Assembly (NCBI GenBank): GCA_945836785.1
Contig: CAMAMD010000028.1
Coordinates: forward strand, 1-12,048
DNA from: an uncultured Clostridium sp.
GTDB taxonomy: Bacteria; Bacillota_A; Clostridia; Lachnospirales; Lachnospiraceae
Length of the DNA: 12,048 bases
Direction: 5' to 3'
The translations under genes and the position numbers were made by a program. How positions within the stretch are numbered: position 1 is the first letter of the stretch; every line of letters starts with the position of its first letter. The notes below the pieces were generated by a model. It saw only the letters and a list, made by a program, of their open reading frames with translations, was not told the origin of the DNA and did no database searches. Of the stretch, positions 1-10,874 are shown piece by piece.

Positions 1-1
1 A

Positions 2-94
2 TATGAGCAGGGGATGAGGCTTTTACAAGAACATTATAATACAAATGTTGATAAGTTGATAGGATATGAACTGGATATTCAAAAGAAAAATTAA
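2..94 (+). CDS. 3' end of a gene paralogous to the 452-1246 gene (partial)
   Basis: Reading from base 2 gives the last 30 residues of a protein (starting YEQGMRLLQEH, ending DIQKKN) and then a TAA stop. They align without gaps to the last 30 residues of the gene at 452-1246, with 26 of 30 identical. At DNA level, bases 1-55 are identical to 1153-1207. The two genes are therefore a tandem same-strand pair whose 3' ends have barely diverged, either from a recent duplication or kept alike by gene conversion. The 5' part lies outside the window. The function is unknown; see the downstream paralogue. Confidence 0.85.
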   Translation, partial: YEQGMRLLQEHYNTNVDKLIGYELDIQKKN

Positions 95-278: not shown

Positions 279-305
279 TTGACAATAGACAAAAAATAGT
301 ATAAT
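279..305 (+). promoter_or_regulatory. Sigma-A type promoter driving the riboswitch leader
   Basis: A perfect -35 TTGACA (279-284) is followed by TATAAT (300-305) with a 15-nt spacer, which is rather short. A second TATAAT at 305-310 would give a 20-nt spacer. Either choice starts transcription just upstream of the aptamer that begins near 320, as expected for a riboswitch leader. Confidence 0.65.
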
Positions 306-319
306 ATAATATTGTCTAA

Positions 320-399
320 TGTAATAACGGCAAACTTGCAGAAATGTAAGGACGCAAAGCTCGGATTCTAAGGTTAATGACTATGAAAGTTCGGTTGCA
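320..399 (+). promoter_or_regulatory. Cyclic-di-GMP-I (GEMM) riboswitch aptamer
   Basis: The leader contains the conserved GEMM-I blocks in order. ACGGCAAAC lies at 327-335. A stem capped by a GAAA tetraloop follows (335-340 paired with 345-350; loop 341-344), then GACGCAAAGC at 351-360. The two halves of the 11-nt GAAA-tetraloop receptor are TCTAAG (367-372) and TATGA (382-386), with the usual closing C-G replaced by U-A. The aptamer ends with GGTTGC (393-398). By alignment to the Vc2 aptamer, the ligand-contacting G20 corresponds to G329. A cGAMP-type variant would have A there, so c-di-GMP is the expected ligand. The aptamer sits between a promoter and a terminator ahead of the 452-1246 gene and should control it. 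Confidence 0.9.
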
Positions 400-425
400 A
401 TGAAAATATCATTGTGACCTTTTTT
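393..425 (+). terminator. Riboswitch expression-platform terminator
   Basis: Bases 393-403 (GGTTGCAATGA) pair fully with 409-419 (TCATTGTGACC) in an 11-bp stem with two G-U pairs and an AAATA loop. Six T follow (420-425). The first six bases of the stem are the conserved 3' end of the c-di-GMP aptamer. Ligand-bound aptamer and terminator therefore cannot form together. This predicts transcription read-through when c-di-GMP is bound (an ON switch), which is an inference from the overlap. Confidence 0.85.
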
Positions 426-451
426 ATTTAAGAGAAAAGGAGAGAGTGAAA

Positions 452-1246
452 ATGGGAAAAAGTTTACAGTCAGAATTTGTAAAGTACTATAAGGAGAGAC
501 TGGAACCGCTTGGGTTTAAAAAAGTGAAGGGCAGACAGCCATATTTCGTGCGTGTGGTTAATGATGAGATTCTGCACATATTTACTTTTATGGGGATAAT
601 GTCTAGAATACAAGGTTACAAAGCCTTTGATTTGTTGTGCGGCGTTGCAACGGTTTACAGAAAAGAAATAAATTTTTCGGTTACACCGAAACATAATAGC
701 GATTGGTTGAGGCCGTTACTAGCTATCAAAGAAAAAAAAGATACGGAATATCCGGTAATAAATTTGCCTCGAGATTTAATGGAGTATTATTACAATGATG
801 AAAATATCAGTGAAGTAATAGAAGAGACATATCATGGTGCAGAAATCATAATCAGTGAGTTGGATAAAATAACAGATATGGATGAAGCACTTAAATATTT
901 TTTAAAACATAATCCGAATAATGTTTCCTTTATGAGCTTATTAAAGGATGATTTTTGTGATGAAGAAGGCTTGTACTATGCAAGAAAAGAATTTGATTAT
1001 ACAAAAATAGAGAAAGTATTTGAAGATAAGCGAGTACAATTAAAGAATAGTAGTTGGAGTGATGCAAAAAAAAAGGAAAGGCATGAGGAAATAGCAGAAT
1101 GGGAAGAAGAAATAAAAAAAGATAGAGAAAAGTTTATTAATAATGAAGATGAATATGAGCAGGGGATGAGGCTTTTACAAGAACATTATAATACAAATGT
1201 TGATAAGCTGATAGACTACGGATTGGATGTTCAAAAGAAAAAATAA
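452..1246 (+). CDS. Protein of unknown function under c-di-GMP riboswitch control (264 aa)
   Basis: I do not recognise this protein with confidence. The ATG at 452 has AGGAG (438-442) nine bases upstream. A GTG at 446 is also in frame but would sit only three bases from that site. There is no signal peptide or clear membrane segment, so it is probably cytosolic. The N-terminal ~75 residues (FVKYYKERLEPLGF, then aromatic beta-strand-like YFVRVV and LHIFTF) recall DUF4304-like or immunity-type folds, but that is only an impression. Residues ~120-160 look helical. Residues ~185-245 are strongly charged (EEIAEWEEEIKKDREKF) and probably form a coiled coil. The gene is AT-rich compared with the flagellar genes, and it is the second member of a tandem paralogue pair. 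A c-di-GMP-I riboswitch and terminator lie in its leader, so expression should follow c-di-GMP levels. Confidence 0.85.
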   Translation: MGKSLQSEFVKYYKERLEPLGFKKVKGRQPYFVRVVNDEILHIFTFMGIMSRIQGYKAFDLLCGVATVYRKEINFSVTPKHNSDWLRPLLAIKEKKDTEYPVINLPRDLMEYYYNDENISEVIEETYHGAEIIISELDKITDMDEALKYFLKHNPNNVSFMSLLKDDFCDEEGLYYARKEFDYTKIEKVFEDKRVQLKNSSWSDAKKKERHEEIAEWEEEIKKDREKFINNEDEYEQGMRLLQEHYNTNVDKLIDYGLDVQKKK

Positions 1247-5799: not shown

Positions 5800-8796
5800 A
5801 TGGGGCAGACCTTGGGAAACGGATTGAATAATATAAATGATGCGATGTCGGATTACGCTGCCGTGAAGGCAAACCGCTGTTATACACAATATGGTGAGCC
5901 GGTTGCAGAGCGATATGGCAACGAAAAAGATATCGATTTGGAATCGGTTTTGGGATATAAGTATGCGGGACATGCAGAAAATCAAAATTTATCGAAGACC
6001 ATGAGCGATAATTTTGACGAGTATATGAAGGCAAGGCAGGAGCGTGCAAAGGAAGCGGGCGAGGACGAGGAAACAAAGAAAAGACAGGAAAAAGAGGAAG
6101 CGAAAGAGATTGCACGTAATCTTTCTGAGGAAGAGATAAAAACACTTACCATGATGGGGGTGGATGTGGAGAGTGCCAGCTTGTCCGACATCATGGGAAT
6201 TGTGAATACGTTGCGGGGAAACGCACACAGGGAGCAGACTGCGCAGATGTTGGCAGAAATCAGTGCGGGACAGGGTGATACAGATGGTCTTTCGGTGATT
6301 GGCGGAAGCGTGAAAGTGGCAGGCACGGATGTGGAGCTTCAGAATGTCAGTGTGTCCGATGTGGTGATAAATAGGGAAGCGGCAGAAATAGGCGGAGAGA
6401 GAAAGTTAGGCGATGATGCGTTAATTTATCTGTTGAAAAACAATCTGCCGATGACAAAGGAAAACTTATATAAGGCATATTACAGTGGAGGGCATGCTGC
6501 GACAGACAATGTCCCTGATTCTGTTTTTCAGGATATGAGGCAGCAGATAGAAAAGGTCATCGAACAGGCCGGATATGAGGTGGATGAAACAACGCTCTCC
6601 GGGGCTAAGCTGCTGCTTTCTCATGAACTGCCCCTGACAACTGATTCAATCAAGGCATATATGGATTATCAGACATATGCGGGAGCGGATCCTGGGGCTG
6701 TTTCAGCACCGGAGAATATGCGGGAAATGGATGACCGGCAGGCAGAGATGCTCTATATGAAAGCAAACAGTATTCGCCCTGAGACGGTTTATGATATGAC
6801 ACTGCAGGGGAAAGAGATAACGATAGCCTCAGCGTATCGGGAGACCATTGCTGTGCAGCAAAATATGGGACAGACAGAGAATGATATGCTGCAGGCAGGG
6901 AAAAAGCCGCAGGCAGAGGAAGACCGGGAGCTTTTGGCTGTGACAAACATGAGGAGGATGGAAGAAATCCGGTTGTCAATGACGTTGGAGGCTGCAGGGC
7001 GTTTGGTGAAGTCGGATATTAATATAGATACGAGAGAGTTGTCGCGTGTTGTCCGGGAATTGCAGGATGCGGAGCAGGCGTTGGTGGCACGTCAGTTTCA
7101 ACGGGCCGGTCTGGAACCGACGGAGGAAAATCTGTCAGTGTACTATGAAATGACAGAGAAGGTGGAAAGCCTTGCACAGACACCGGCGGCTGTGATTGCC
7201 ACACCGCTGTCCGGTGGAGATTTTACAGTGAACGGGCTGTATGATGCAGGGGTTCGTCTATATAATGTGGAAGATGCTTCCGGTGTGGAACGTGCTGTAT
7301 CGGAGAAACGATTTGAGACGGTCAGACGGGATTATGAAGCATTGGGGACCGCACCGCGTGCTGATATGGGAGACAGCATTACGAAAGCATTTTCCAATGT
7401 GGATGATATCCTGCGGGAGCTTGATTTGCCGGTTAATTATGAGACACAGAGGGCTGTGAGAATCCTGGGATATAATTCCCTGGAACTTACAGTGGATAAT
7501 ATAGAACAGGTGATGGACTACGACCGCCAGGTGAATGAGCTGATGCAGAATTTCTATCCTGAGGCGGTGCTGTCCGCCATTCGGGATGGCATAAATCCGC
7601 TTGATATGCCGATTGATGAATTGAATCAGGTGATTCGTGACAGAAATTATAATGACGGGGTGACGGAGGCTGATAATTTTGCTACATATTTACGGGATAT
7701 GGAACAGCGGGGACAGGTAACGCCGGAGGAACGGGAGAGCTATATCGGTATCTACAGAGTTATGAACCGACTGGCGAAATCCGGTGACCGGGAGGCGGGA
7801 TATCTGTTTGCAAACGGAAGCAGATTGACGGTGCGTAATCTGATTTCGGCCATGCGAAGCCGGAAAGCGGCAGGGATGGATGTTGCCGTGGATGATAATT
7901 TTGGCATGCTGGAGGATGCAGGCGTTACAGAGAACCGGATGGATACGCAGATTGAGCGGGCGTTTGTCGACAGACATATGGAAAAATTGACAGCACAGGT
8001 TGAACAATTTATGCAGGAAAATGAAATCGAAGTTTCCATGGTGAATGTCAGTGCGGTTCATGAGATGCTGTCGCCTCAGGGTGGTTTATATCAATTGGTT
8101 TCGGAAATTTTATCAAAAATGCATTTTCATTCTGATACGAAAGAAGATATGATAGATGACGAAACAGAGCATATGACGGATTCCCTTACAGGGGAGGAGG
8201 TTCCGCTATCGTTTGAGCCGGAACATATCCTTGAGAGCCTGCGAAGGGGAACAGATATGTCGCTTACTTATGATGACCTGCGCAGCCGGATGACGGACTT
8301 TATGTATCAGGCTGGTATTGCGGGAAATCTAACAAGCATGGATATTTCTTCCGTCAAGGTGGTACAGGCAGGTTTTCGTATTCTTGGCAGTATGGCGCGG
8401 AAAGACAGATATCAAGTGCCTGTGGAGACTGCACAGGGGATTCGGGTAGTAAATCTGACCGTGCAGCATGACAGTGAAAATCGTGGAACTGTGGAGCTTC
8501 ATACAGAAGGCCGGCAGATGGGAGATGTACGGGCGAAGGTTCGTCTGGACGGAGCAGGACGCTTGTCCGGTTATATTGTGTCTGAAAGTGAAGCGGGCAA
8601 TTATCTGCTTGCCGGGCAGGAGCAGATGCTGTTGTCGAAGCTTGCTCAAAGCGGATATACGAAATGTGATGTCAGAGTGGGACAGTTATATTCTGATACA
8701 GCAGATGAGCCGGATGGGTATACAGCACCTGAGGCTGATGAGATTTATGGTGTGTCGGTGGCACTTGTGAAGGCGGTTGCGGATATTCTGTGCTGA
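5800..8796 (+). CDS. Large flagellar-locus protein, DUF6240-type with FliK-like C-terminus (998 aa)
   Basis: There is no signal peptide or membrane segment. Residues ~70-110 are a charged helix. From ~110 to ~860 the protein is built of diverged helical modules with a recurring pattern of a hydrophobic helix, then L-P/T-x-T-x-x-N-L: LLKNNLPMTKENL at 211, LLSHELPLTTDSI at 272, AGLEPTEENL at 436, LELTVDNI at 561, NGSRLTVRNL at 672, MSLTYDDL at 820. Residues ~871-965 (YQVPVETAQGIRVVNL, then GDVRAKVRLDGAGRLSGYIVSE, then LLSKLAQSGYTKCDVRV) resemble the C-terminal domain of FliK hook-length control proteins. The family resembles DUF6240 proteins of Lachnospiraceae flagellar loci, assigned from memory. 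The position next to flagellin and the SigD-like -10 suggest a late flagellar role, perhaps length control or export. AAGGAAGG lies 11 bases before the ATG. Confidence 0.75.
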   Translation: MGQTLGNGLNNINDAMSDYAAVKANRCYTQYGEPVAERYGNEKDIDLESVLGYKYAGHAENQNLSKTMSDNFDEYMKARQERAKEAGEDEETKKRQEKEEAKEIARNLSEEEIKTLTMMGVDVESASLSDIMGIVNTLRGNAHREQTAQMLAEISAGQGDTDGLSVIGGSVKVAGTDVELQNVSVSDVVINREAAEIGGERKLGDDALIYLLKNNLPMTKENLYKAYYSGGHAATDNVPDSVFQDMRQQIEKVIEQAGYEVDETTLSGAKLLLSHELPLTTDSIKAYMDYQTYAGADPGAVSAPENMREMDDRQAEMLYMKANSIRPETVYDMTLQGKEITIASAYRETIAVQQNMGQTENDMLQAGKKPQAEEDRELLAVTNMRRMEEIRLSMTLEAAGRLVKSDINIDTRELSRVVRELQDAEQALVARQFQRAGLEPTEENLSVYYEMTEKVESLAQTPAAVIATPLSGGDFTVNGLYDAGVRLYNVEDASGVERAVSEKRFETVRRDYEALGTAPRADMGDSITKAFSNVDDILRELDLPVNYETQRAVRILGYNSLELTVDNIEQVMDYDRQVNELMQNFYPEAVLSAIRDGINPLDMPIDELNQVIRDRNYNDGVTEADNFATYLRDMEQRGQVTPEERESYIGIYRVMNRLAKSGDREAGYLFANGSRLTVRNLISAMRSRKAAGMDVAVDDNFGMLEDAGVTENRMDTQIERAFVDRHMEKLTAQVEQFMQENEIEVSMVNVSAVHEMLSPQGGLYQLVSEILSKMHFHSDTKEDMIDDETEHMTDSLTGEEVPLSFEPEHILESLRRGTDMSLTYDDLRSRMTDFMYQAGIAGNLTSMDISSVKVVQAGFRILGSMARKDRYQVPVETAQGIRVVNLTVQHDSENRGTVELHTEGRQMGDVRAKVRLDGAGRLSGYIVSESEAGNYLLAGQEQMLLSKLAQSGYTKCDVRVGQLYSDTADEPDGYTAPEADEIYGVSVALVKAVADILC

Positions 8797-8828
8797 TAAA
8801 ATGATATCTTACAGGTATGCATAGTGTT

Positions 8829-8854
8829 TAGAAACAGAAAAAAGTGTCCGATAA
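8829..8854 (+). promoter_or_regulatory. SigD (sigma-28/FliA) promoter of flagellin
   Basis: TAGA (8829-8832), 14 nt, then TCCGATAA (8847-8854) closely fits the flagellar sigma-28 consensus TAAA-N15-GCCGATAA. It is upstream of flagellin and predicts a leader of about 75 nt. Confidence 0.8.
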
Positions 8855-8910
8855 TATATGTAGAGATTTAAGAGATGCACATGATTTTGTGAAATGTTTA
8901 ACTCTTATAA

Positions 8911-8930
8911 ATCAGGGATGAATTTGGAGG
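8911..8930 (+). promoter_or_regulatory. Putative CsrA binding region in the flagellin leader
   Basis: ATCAGGGATG (8911-8920) is close to the CsrA consensus ACARGGAUGU. A second GGA lies in the ribosome binding site TTGGAGG (8924-8930), six bases before the ATG. Two GGA sites, one on the Shine-Dalgarno, is the arrangement by which CsrA represses flagellin (hag) translation in Bacillus, with FliW as antagonist. It is assigned by motif only; no csrA or fliW lies in this window. Confidence 0.55.
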
Positions 8931-8936
8931 TAGCAT

Positions 8937-10364
8937 ATGAGAATAAACCACAACTCATTGGCACTCAATGCCAGTGATCATTTTGCAACGATTAATAAAA
9001 ATATTGCCAAGTCAATGGAGCGCTTGTCGTCTGGATACAAGATTACCAGTCCGGCGGATGATGCAGCGGGACTTGCTATATCAACAAAAATGAGTGCACA
9101 GATTCGAGGACTCGACAGAGCAGCACTCAACTCCAATGATGGAATATCCGTGATTCAGTCAGCGGAAGGTGGATTAAATGAGATACATTCTATCTTGGGC
9201 AGAATGAGAGAGCTTGCTGTACAGGCAGCAAATGATGTGAATTATGAGGATGACAGAGATGCAATCCAGGAGGAGATAGACTCTCTGCGAGAGGAGATAG
9301 ACCAGATCGTTGATACCACTGCATTTAACGATCAGAAGTTATTGAACGGAGATATGACCAGACGTTCTTTGTCCAGTGATCCGAACCTGAAAGCGACCTA
9401 TCTGTCTGAGACTGTAAGTACAGGCGTATATGAACTGACGGTGACCGCAGATGCGGAGCGGGCAACTTATGCAACCGGTTTTTCGTATTCTGCCGCAACG
9501 ATTACCCATGATCAGGCCGGTACACTGCAGGTCAATGGATTTTCGGTGTCCATTACAGAGGGCATGACAATGACAAATGTATTCGAGGAGCTGCAGATGC
9601 ATCTTTCAAAGATTGGTGTGGATGTACTTGCCTCGACGGATGGTGGTACAACCGAGGCGGATTTTGCGTCCGGTGCGCCGGTTCTGTTTCGGAGTAAAGA
9701 GTATGGTTCAGTGCAGAAAATAGAAATTAAGATCGATAATGATGCGTTGGCTGCCGTACTTGGCGTGACAGATGGTGATGTTACATACGGAAAGGATTGT
9801 CAGGCAGATATTACCGTAACAAATGACGGATTTTCTACAACTGCCTCCTTTACAACGAGCGGAAATGAGATTAATATTGTAGATAGAAATGGATTTGAAA
9901 TGACTGTTGAGACGACACCGGGGGCAGCAGCCCAGGGTAGCGTGAGCACCCGGATTGAGGTGTTGTCTGCAGGAACAATGGTGATACAGACCGGAGCAAA
10001 TTCGGGTGAACAGATTTCCCTTGACATTTCTTCTGTGAGTGCGAAAAGTCTGGGTGTGGATAACCTTATTATGTACACACATGAATATGCTGCCCAGGCA
10101 ATTTCGGCAATAGATAAAGCGATTGAAAAGGTTTCAAGAATACGTTCCAAGCTGGGCGCTTATGAGAATCGTCTGGATGACGTTTATGATAATCTGGAGG
10201 TTCAGAGCGAAAGCATCACAGCTGCATACTCCAGAATCATGGATACGGATATGGCAGAAGAAATGACAAACTACACGCAACAGGATGTTTTATCGCAGGC
10301 AGCGATTTCCATGATGCAGAAATCAAATGAGCGTCCGGAATCTATCCTGCAATTACTGCAGTAA
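8937..10364 (+). CDS. fliC: Flagellin (filament subunit, 475 aa)
   Basis: This is the structural subunit of the flagellar filament, exported through the flagellar type III apparatus. The conserved N-terminal D0/D1 region is residues 1-140 (MRINHNSLALNA, then SMERLSSGYKITSPADDAAGLAIS). The C-terminal D1/D0 region is about 384-475 (AISAIDKAIEKVSRIRSKLGAYENRL, ending ISMMQKSNERPESILQLL). The central ~240 residues form a variable surface domain, including a stretch like flagellin D2 insertions (LQVNGFSVSITEGMT). GRMRELAVQAAN (88-99) matches the TLR5-recognised segment, including its Arg and Leu positions, so the protein is probably recognised by TLR5. Residues 11-25 (NASDHFATINKNIAK) depart somewhat from the usual ALRALNQLNK-type run. 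A SigD promoter and a GGAGG site precede it; fliS-like follows after 33 bases. Bacillus-style naming would be hag. Confidence 0.97.
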   Translation: MRINHNSLALNASDHFATINKNIAKSMERLSSGYKITSPADDAAGLAISTKMSAQIRGLDRAALNSNDGISVIQSAEGGLNEIHSILGRMRELAVQAANDVNYEDDRDAIQEEIDSLREEIDQIVDTTAFNDQKLLNGDMTRRSLSSDPNLKATYLSETVSTGVYELTVTADAERATYATGFSYSAATITHDQAGTLQVNGFSVSITEGMTMTNVFEELQMHLSKIGVDVLASTDGGTTEADFASGAPVLFRSKEYGSVQKIEIKIDNDALAAVLGVTDGDVTYGKDCQADITVTNDGFSTTASFTTSGNEINIVDRNGFEMTVETTPGAAAQGSVSTRIEVLSAGTMVIQTGANSGEQISLDISSVSAKSLGVDNLIMYTHEYAAQAISAIDKAIEKVSRIRSKLGAYENRLDDVYDNLEVQSESITAAYSRIMDTDMAEEMTNYTQQDVLSQAAISMMQKSNERPESILQLLQ

Positions 10365-10365
10365 T
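10352..10365. repeat. Perfect 14-bp palindrome across the flagellin stop codon
   Basis: ATTACTGCAGTAAT is its own reverse complement and includes the last sense codons and TAA of flagellin. It could mark mRNA processing or reduce read-through to fliS. It lacks a loop and T run, so it is not a standard terminator. Confidence 0.5.
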
Positions 10366-10397
10366 GTACATGACAGAGTGTGGTAAGGAGAGGTCAT

Positions 10398-10874
10398 ATG
10401 ACGAAAGAGCAGATACAGGAGTTTACACGCAGGACAACGCAGGAAAATCACAGTGGATTGATTCTGGTGCTGTGTGACATGGAGCGGGTGTATGTTTCGG
10501 ATGCACTGGGGGCGTATGCCGATGATATGGATGCGTATGTGAAAAACATAGAACTTGCCAGGAAAACACATAATGAGCTGATGCAATGTTTTGATCTGTC
10601 AAACGAACAGGCACGGAAAGTTGTCTCAATATTGCGCTTTATATATGGAAAGCTTGTTGCATCCAGTGTGAAACGGCAACCACAGGAGCTGGAGCGTTGC
10701 ATGGGGATGCTGGAAAAGCTGAGAATAGGGTTTGAACATTTACATGAGGTGGATACCGAGGGGCCTGTGATGCAAAATACACATCAGGTATATGCCGGGC
10801 TTACATACGGTAAGGGTGTGCTGAATGAAAGTACGCTGGGTGTGGATTATGGCAGCAGAGGATTTAAGATATGA
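10398..10874 (+). CDS. fliS: FliS-like flagellin export chaperone (158 aa)
   Basis: FliS proteins bind the C-terminal helices of unassembled flagellin in the cytosol and stop premature polymerisation before export. Residues ~8-116 have the FliS helical pattern: FTRRTTQENHSGLILVLCDMERVYVSDAL, then YVKNIELARKTHNELMQCF, then IYGKLVASSVKRQPQELERCMGMLEKLRIGF. The tail from ~118 (NTHQVYAGLTYGKGVLNE, then RGFKI) extends beyond typical FliS of about 130 residues and is Gly-rich. The ATG at 10398 follows AAGGAGAGG (10385-10393). The in-frame GTG at 10380 lies before that site and is rejected. It is 33 bases after flagellin, so very likely cotranscribed with its client. Identity with canonical FliS is low (no LYDGA motif; CDMER instead), so some caution applies. 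Confidence 0.75.
   Translation: MTKEQIQEFTRRTTQENHSGLILVLCDMERVYVSDALGAYADDMDAYVKNIELARKTHNELMQCFDLSNEQARKVVSILRFIYGKLVASSVKRQPQELERCMGMLEKLRIGFEHLHEVDTEGPVMQNTHQVYAGLTYGKGVLNESTLGVDYGSRGFKI

Follow-up and report, generated by a model that had tools for sequence, protein, structure and literature searches.

Cyclic dimeric guanosine monophosphate (c-di-GMP) is known for its roles in motility and adhesion. In Clostridioides difficile, the targets of riboswitches of the c-di-GMP-I (GEMM-I) class include small hypothetical proteins and a calcium-binding adhesion protein. Two prophages of this species carry c-di-GMP-I elements ahead of antisense RNAs that are the antitoxins of type I toxin-antitoxin systems (PMC11477304, in excerpt), the nearest precedent found for a c-di-GMP-I aptamer before an antidote. 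In Geobacter, the pilM riboswitch is an ON switch with mutual exclusion of aptamer and terminator and a sequestered ligand-pairing C (PMC9262584, in excerpt). Polymorphic-toxin polyimmunity loci combine tandem immunity genes with nuclease-fold toxins (Zhang et al. 2012, PMC3482391, in excerpt). Here, a 12,048-nucleotide (nt) stretch of an uncultured Clostridium sp. of the Lachnospiraceae (assembly GCA_945836785.1, contig CAMAMD010000028.1; hereafter the window) was found to carry a c-di-GMP-I riboswitch in front of a gene for a 264-amino-acid (aa) protein. This target is best read, from sequence and context, as a cytosolic immunity protein of a repeats-in-toxin (RTX) polymorphic-toxin system, the toxin status of the RTX partners being itself putative. 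Taken as a whole, an ON riboswitch controlling an RTX-toxin immunity protein was the best explanation of the locus, with the balance leaning modestly in its favour.

The window aptamer belongs to the same family as those of C. difficile, but its target, unlike RNAs directed against toxin mRNAs (PMC11477304, in excerpt), is a protein tied by context to secreted RTX toxins. Its layout is that of the Geobacter riboswitch, which differs in sensing cyclic GMP-AMP (cGAMP) and in controlling pilM (PMC9262584, in excerpt). The target and its relatives (hereafter FAM) share tandem genes and putative nuclease partners with the polyimmunity loci, and differ from them by the lack of a Pfam match to such a family in FAM or its partners, by an RTX/FrpC-like carrier and by riboswitch control. 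The RTX partner at locus L128 possessed a FrpC-like module and RTX repeats (PDB 6sjw), as FrpC-like RTX proteins do, whereas the partners described here occur in Lachnospiraceae and relatives and have a nuclease-like N-terminus and an immunity-like neighbour gene. Mechanism and architecture are ordinary for the c-di-GMP-I family, and the kind of target is what is new; a link between c-di-GMP-I and protein immunity was not named in the titles or abstract openings of the open-licence literature searched.

The aptamer, which the initial annotation had recognized from the letters, matched the Rfam model RF01051 over its full length (positions 1-87 of 87), with a cmscan score of 67.6 bits (gathering threshold 35), and was the sole Rfam match in the window at gathering scores. 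The conserved blocks named at that time were present, with GGCAAAC starting at 329 and GACGCAAAGC starting at 351, and with the GAAA-capped P2 and the P3 strands visible in the Rfam alignment. The folding energy of the aptamer alone was unremarkable (z = -0.22 against dinucleotide shuffles). G329, at position 11 of the RF01051 model, occupies the ligand-selectivity position, which we take to be the equivalent of G20 in Vc2. RNAs of the cGAMP type (GEMM-Ib) bear an A there, unlike the window. This retained G argues against an aptamer for another cyclic dinucleotide, e.g. 3',3'-cGAMP, a reading judged very improbable although both riboswitch classes have a common fold and one of each is compared in the excerpt of PMC9262584, where G11/G20 is described as a selectivity factor and not as a hard filter.

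The 3' end of the aptamer also supplied the 5' arm of an 11-bp intrinsic terminator (393-403 paired with 409-419), as initially proposed. The terminator fold reached -13.4 kcal/mol, compared to -3.07±1.85 kcal/mol for 200 dinucleotide shuffles (z = -5.58, no shuffle as good), whereas terminator-like sites in the window were as numerous as in shuffles (7 and 7.0, respectively). As neither the aptamer energy nor the number of terminator-like sites was remarkable, it is the covariance model, together with where this hairpin lies and how stable it is, that carries the significance. The P1 helix pairs U320-U325 with G394-A399, and nucleotides 394-399 are common to P1 and the terminator 5' arm; since both helices need them, they are mutually exclusive. 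C398, presumably the ligand-pairing C, sits within the terminator stem. Without ligand, folding of 315-430 gave -23.2 kcal/mol for the terminator state and -15.4 kcal/mol for the P1 state, i.e. an advantage of 7.8 kcal/mol for termination. In the growing RNA, the P1 pairing probability was 0.50-0.51 at 3' ends 404-408 and dropped from 0.42 to zero between 3' ends 412 and 416, as the terminator 3' arm emerged, and there is therefore a short decision window during which the ligand must hold P1. By these computations the switch should be ON, with c-di-GMP binding preventing termination, which agrees with the logic first suggested. Based on a simple script, the overlap of P1 and terminator occurred in 40 of 134 c-di-GMP-I riboswitches (the window included), with a separate terminator in 53 and none found in 41; one riboswitch was dropped for want of a core motif and three short loci were not entered.

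Concerning the target, the initial annotation had recognized no named family, and the database searches concurred. The 264-aa protein had no Pfam family at E 1 and no PADLOC match, NCBIfam gave one unrelated row (14.8 bits, cut-off 150), and PHROGs gave chance-level rows only (best E 0.053). The proposed family search recovered 90 relatives, mostly unnamed, the three closest being 86-96% identical. The structure was predicted confidently (mean predicted local distance difference test, pLDDT, 96.1), with no clear solved structural relative for the model, and the FAM alignment showed an invariant G21-F22 and a near-invariant Q29.

The relatives were further inspected at 45 FAM loci outside the window, some of which share a genome. 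These exclude L058 (G371, E 3.7e-7), two pieces of G412:C16, loci duplicating counted ones, and weak matches that fell in different proteins (L083-L086, L091, plus a few that had no locus). At least two FAM genes were present at seven of the loci, and fused forms were found in L022, L031 and L033. The window itself contained the end of an upstream tandem copy, whose DNA was 91% identical to the target gene, with three synonymous and four non-synonymous codon differences, so that tandem copies or fused multi-domain forms, the mark of polyimmunity, occurred in both the window and the relatives. In L031 (1043-5059), a 1338-aa protein carried five FAM-matching stretches and may be a polyimmunity protein. 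A large RTX protein adjoined FAM relatives at nine of the 45 loci. A PD-(D/E)XK signature, D90 followed by [ED]xK106, was present in the N-termini of all eight aligned RTX partners. Because tandem copies are combined with RTX neighbours that have a nuclease-like N-terminus, the target was read as a putative immunity protein. By published residue description alone, the nearest named pair is Tox-REase-9 (GxxxH, E, D, ELKP and YxxE) and Imm54 (alpha+beta, with GF and Q; PMC3482391, in excerpt), to which G21-F22 and Q29 of FAM correspond; this pair was absent among the Pfam matches listed at E 1 for the eight partner N-termini and for the 264-aa protein, with the presence of an Imm54 model in the library left unchecked.

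The RTX module was also found with other N-termini. The FrpC-like domain of an RTX protein from a further genome, G143, matched 110 of 397 genomes, mostly weakly and in short proteins, with matches at E <1e-30 in nine places in seven genomes. Upstream of RTX proteins with other N-termini were a 169-aa gene (G143:C43), two 167-aa genes (L266), and genes of 153 and 155 aa (L261 and L262, respectively). Between L261 and L262, the RTX N-terminus was 36% identical over 312 aa and the small gene 23% identical (E 4e-4 among 11 sequences). L264 fitted less simply, as one small upstream gene repeated the start of the RTX protein. At the sequence level, the neighbour gene appears to track the RTX N-terminus, which is how a polymorphic toxin and its cognate immunity should behave. 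This pattern bears on a rather unlikely alternative, in which the 264-aa protein would serve the RTX protein as its specific chaperone or as a partner in its secretion, and c-di-GMP would aid RTX export: the small neighbours of RTX proteins with other N-termini are unrelated, and thus follow the N-terminus and not the shared RTX part. Moreover, tandem or fused multi-copy forms without an RTX open reading frame in the stretch examined (L017, L031, L033) suit polyimmunity better, and structural-comparison rows for chaperones were far below the Z deemed meaningful.

In the favoured explanation, riboswitch-controlled immunity, transcription would start just ahead of the aptamer. At low c-di-GMP, the terminator would capture the P1 3' strand and the transcript would end at about 425, whereas bound c-di-GMP would hold P1, preclude the terminator and allow the 264-aa gene to be expressed. 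The product would act in the cytosol as an immunity protein, encoded by a small homogeneous polyimmunity locus of two or more tandem copies. It would neutralize the PD-(D/E)XK-type nuclease domain at the N-terminus of FrpC-like RTX proteins secreted by the own cell, by kin or by neighbours. High c-di-GMP, as in crowded, attached life, would then bring more protection. The ligand response, the immunity function and its benefit are the parts of this explanation that we infer; the aptamer, the terminator, their mutual exclusion, the tandem copy, and the RTX neighbours of the relatives with their nuclease-like signature were computed.

Several observations weigh against this explanation. No RTX gene was visible in the window, where the left neighbour is cut off by the edge, and 36 of the 45 FAM loci had no RTX open reading frame within the sequence stretch examined. 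Neither the 264-aa protein nor eight relatives had a Pfam match that would place them in a named immunity family. Foldseek returned no match at E 0.001 for the model of the 264-aa protein or for that of the partner nuclease-like N-terminus, and the latter model had a mean pLDDT of only 55. An Rfam scan of whole loci detected c-di-GMP-I at none of the 45 FAM loci, where the identity of the compared FAM genes to the target did not exceed about 45% along their length; at least 300 nt upstream were covered in 38 of them, and less in L011, L019, L020, L025, L027, L032 and L033. Conversely, FAM was encoded at none of 137 surveyed c-di-GMP-I loci within the stretch examined, a non-random set comprising 20 riboswitches from three FAM genomes, seven from one genus group, and 110 of the better-scoring ones among 397 sampled genomes. 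The RTX module stood without a riboswitch at eight other loci in six genomes, although at three of these loci the sequence stops no more than 350 nt from where the RTX gene begins, and riboswitch control is therefore not general. Among known systems, the c-di-GMP-I-associated antitoxin promoter of the C. difficile prophages was reported as dispensable, a second promoter being stronger (PMC11477304, in excerpt).

A whole-genome search of G412 for RF01051 found none, and the galM region of four sister genomes (L131-L134) contained neither FAM nor riboswitch. Given its absence from the 45 FAM loci, the 137 riboswitch loci and the sister genomes, the riboswitch-FAM pairing was seen in this window only. 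The initial placement of the target in the c-di-GMP regulon, for which a survey of upstream leaders had been suggested, thus holds for the window, where similar cassettes before the same kind of system in G143 add weight, and did not extend to the relatives examined. The isolation of the pairing and the empty galM regions favour a fortuitous capture, in which either a riboswitch-terminator unit arrived by chance ahead of an immunity-like gene or that gene entered the site downstream of a pre-existing riboswitch, selection having shaped no regulatory logic. This was considered unlikely, if less so than a chaperone role, as the aptamer, the P1/terminator overlap and the gene spacing are all intact, and as G143 has similar cassettes before immunity-like arrays and an RTX operon.

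Among the 137 surveyed riboswitches, those most similar to the window's riboswitch and terminator were two from G143 (L156, then L189), one of them ahead of an array of immunity-like genes and the other ahead of an immunity-like gene and an RTX protein of the same family as the FAM partners. The terminator arms GGTTGCAATGA and TCATTGNGACC occurred in five of 258 loci, which reduce to three separate places, two in G143 (C29 and C43) and one in G137; the G137 place precedes a lipoprotein-like gene, a further point against the favoured explanation. In G143:C43, a riboswitch of 70.1 bits was followed by the 169-aa gene and then by an overlapping gene for a 1281-aa RTX protein with eight RTX stretches, which beyond about residue 490 shares 37-49% identity with the FAM partners. 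G143:C29 possessed three riboswitches within 7 kb, two of which head arrays of small genes, namely a set of four paralogues (142-163 aa, 67-96% identity), two genes related to the 169-aa one at 55-56% identity, and a 154-aa gene. Behind the third lies a 263-aa gene whose product starts with a hydrophobic stretch. With this window and a single other genome as its basis, a link between c-di-GMP and immunity is plausible from the sequences. A broader reading, held tentatively and at somewhat less than even chances, is that in some Lachnospiraceae an RTX/FrpC-like polymorphic toxin system has its antidotes, and in some cases its toxins, turned on directly by c-di-GMP via scattered riboswitch cassettes, i.e. 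a second-messenger-gated immunity regulon. Such a regulon would couple settling and crowding to interbacterial conflict, and RNA-level control of protein immunity would put defence against neighbours within the attach-or-swim decision.

Three other features of G143 were observed. In L247 (C29, 9966-13322), a GGDEF gene lies one gene upstream of the first riboswitch of the immunity-like array. In L249 (C46, about 782-937), a 61-aa remnant of an RTX FrpC-like module with an internal stop lies ~160 nt upstream of a riboswitch (525-618), and in L250 (C14, 8454-9290) a phage-integrase-family recombinase adjoins a c-di-GMP-I riboswitch and a 152-aa gene.

First genes could be assigned behind 127 of the 137 riboswitches, and among the best 25 of 82 families the leading Pfam matches were CAP (11), PAS_3 (9), PAS_9 (8), GGDEF (6) and transglutaminase (5), and EAL accounted for 3. 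That these are the commonest targets fits the initial suggestion that the target may serve the sessile state, as an effector or at the surface, which was nevertheless judged improbable for the 264-aa protein: by eye it has neither signal peptide nor membrane segment, its relatives adjoin toxin-like genes, and the tandem copies and nuclease-like RTX neighbours point to an immunity protein. Elsewhere in the survey, L258 (G095:C49, 3628-8505) contained a c-di-GMP-I element ahead of an operon resembling a type VII secretion system (YwqH-like and DUF5344-like genes, below Pfam cut-offs, and a 539-aa gene) and, behind it, three genes in tandem (216-217 aa each, 76-87% identity). A second operon of this type, in L257 (G002:C51, 5032-5835), had c-di-GMP-I before WXG100-like genes, with WXG100 above the Pfam cut-off.

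Features of the riboswitch and target gene in the window, with their coordinates, strand and supporting evidence.
Feature	Position	Strand	Evidence
3' end of upstream tandem copy of target gene	1..94	+	91% identical to 1153-1246
Promoter-like site TTGACA-17-TAATAT, just upstream of aptamer	279..307	+	10/12 consensus positions; weak
c-di-GMP-I (GEMM-I) aptamer	319..402	+	RF01051, 67.6 bits, E 8.4e-12
P1 5' strand, pairs with 394-399	320..325	+	Folding
Intrinsic terminator, 11-bp stem 393-419 and T-run 420-425	393..425	+	Folding, shuffles
Shine-Dalgarno AAGGAG, 9 nt ahead of ATG 452	437..442	+	Read from sequence
Target gene, 264 aa, candidate immunity protein (FAM)	452..1246	+	Open reading frame, relatives, structure model, context

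The promoter-like site is weak, as such sites numbered 59 in the window compared to 31.9±5.9 in shuffles. An alternative GTG start at 446 would give a 266-aa protein. Between the tandem copy and the riboswitch (110-180), two imperfect direct repeats were noticed by eye, which an automated repeat search did not return. The interval between the target gene and a convergent aldose-epimerase gene held a 22-nt inverted repeat (1288-1382; 95% complementary, 51 nt apart), perhaps a two-way terminator. Farther downstream (5800-10874), flagellar genes (DUF6240/FliK-like, flagellin, FliS) were present with no c-di-GMP-I element before them. The neighbouring genes matched best a genus-level group in the Lachnospiraceae sample, with identities of up to 82% for galM and up to 88% for a 113-aa gene.
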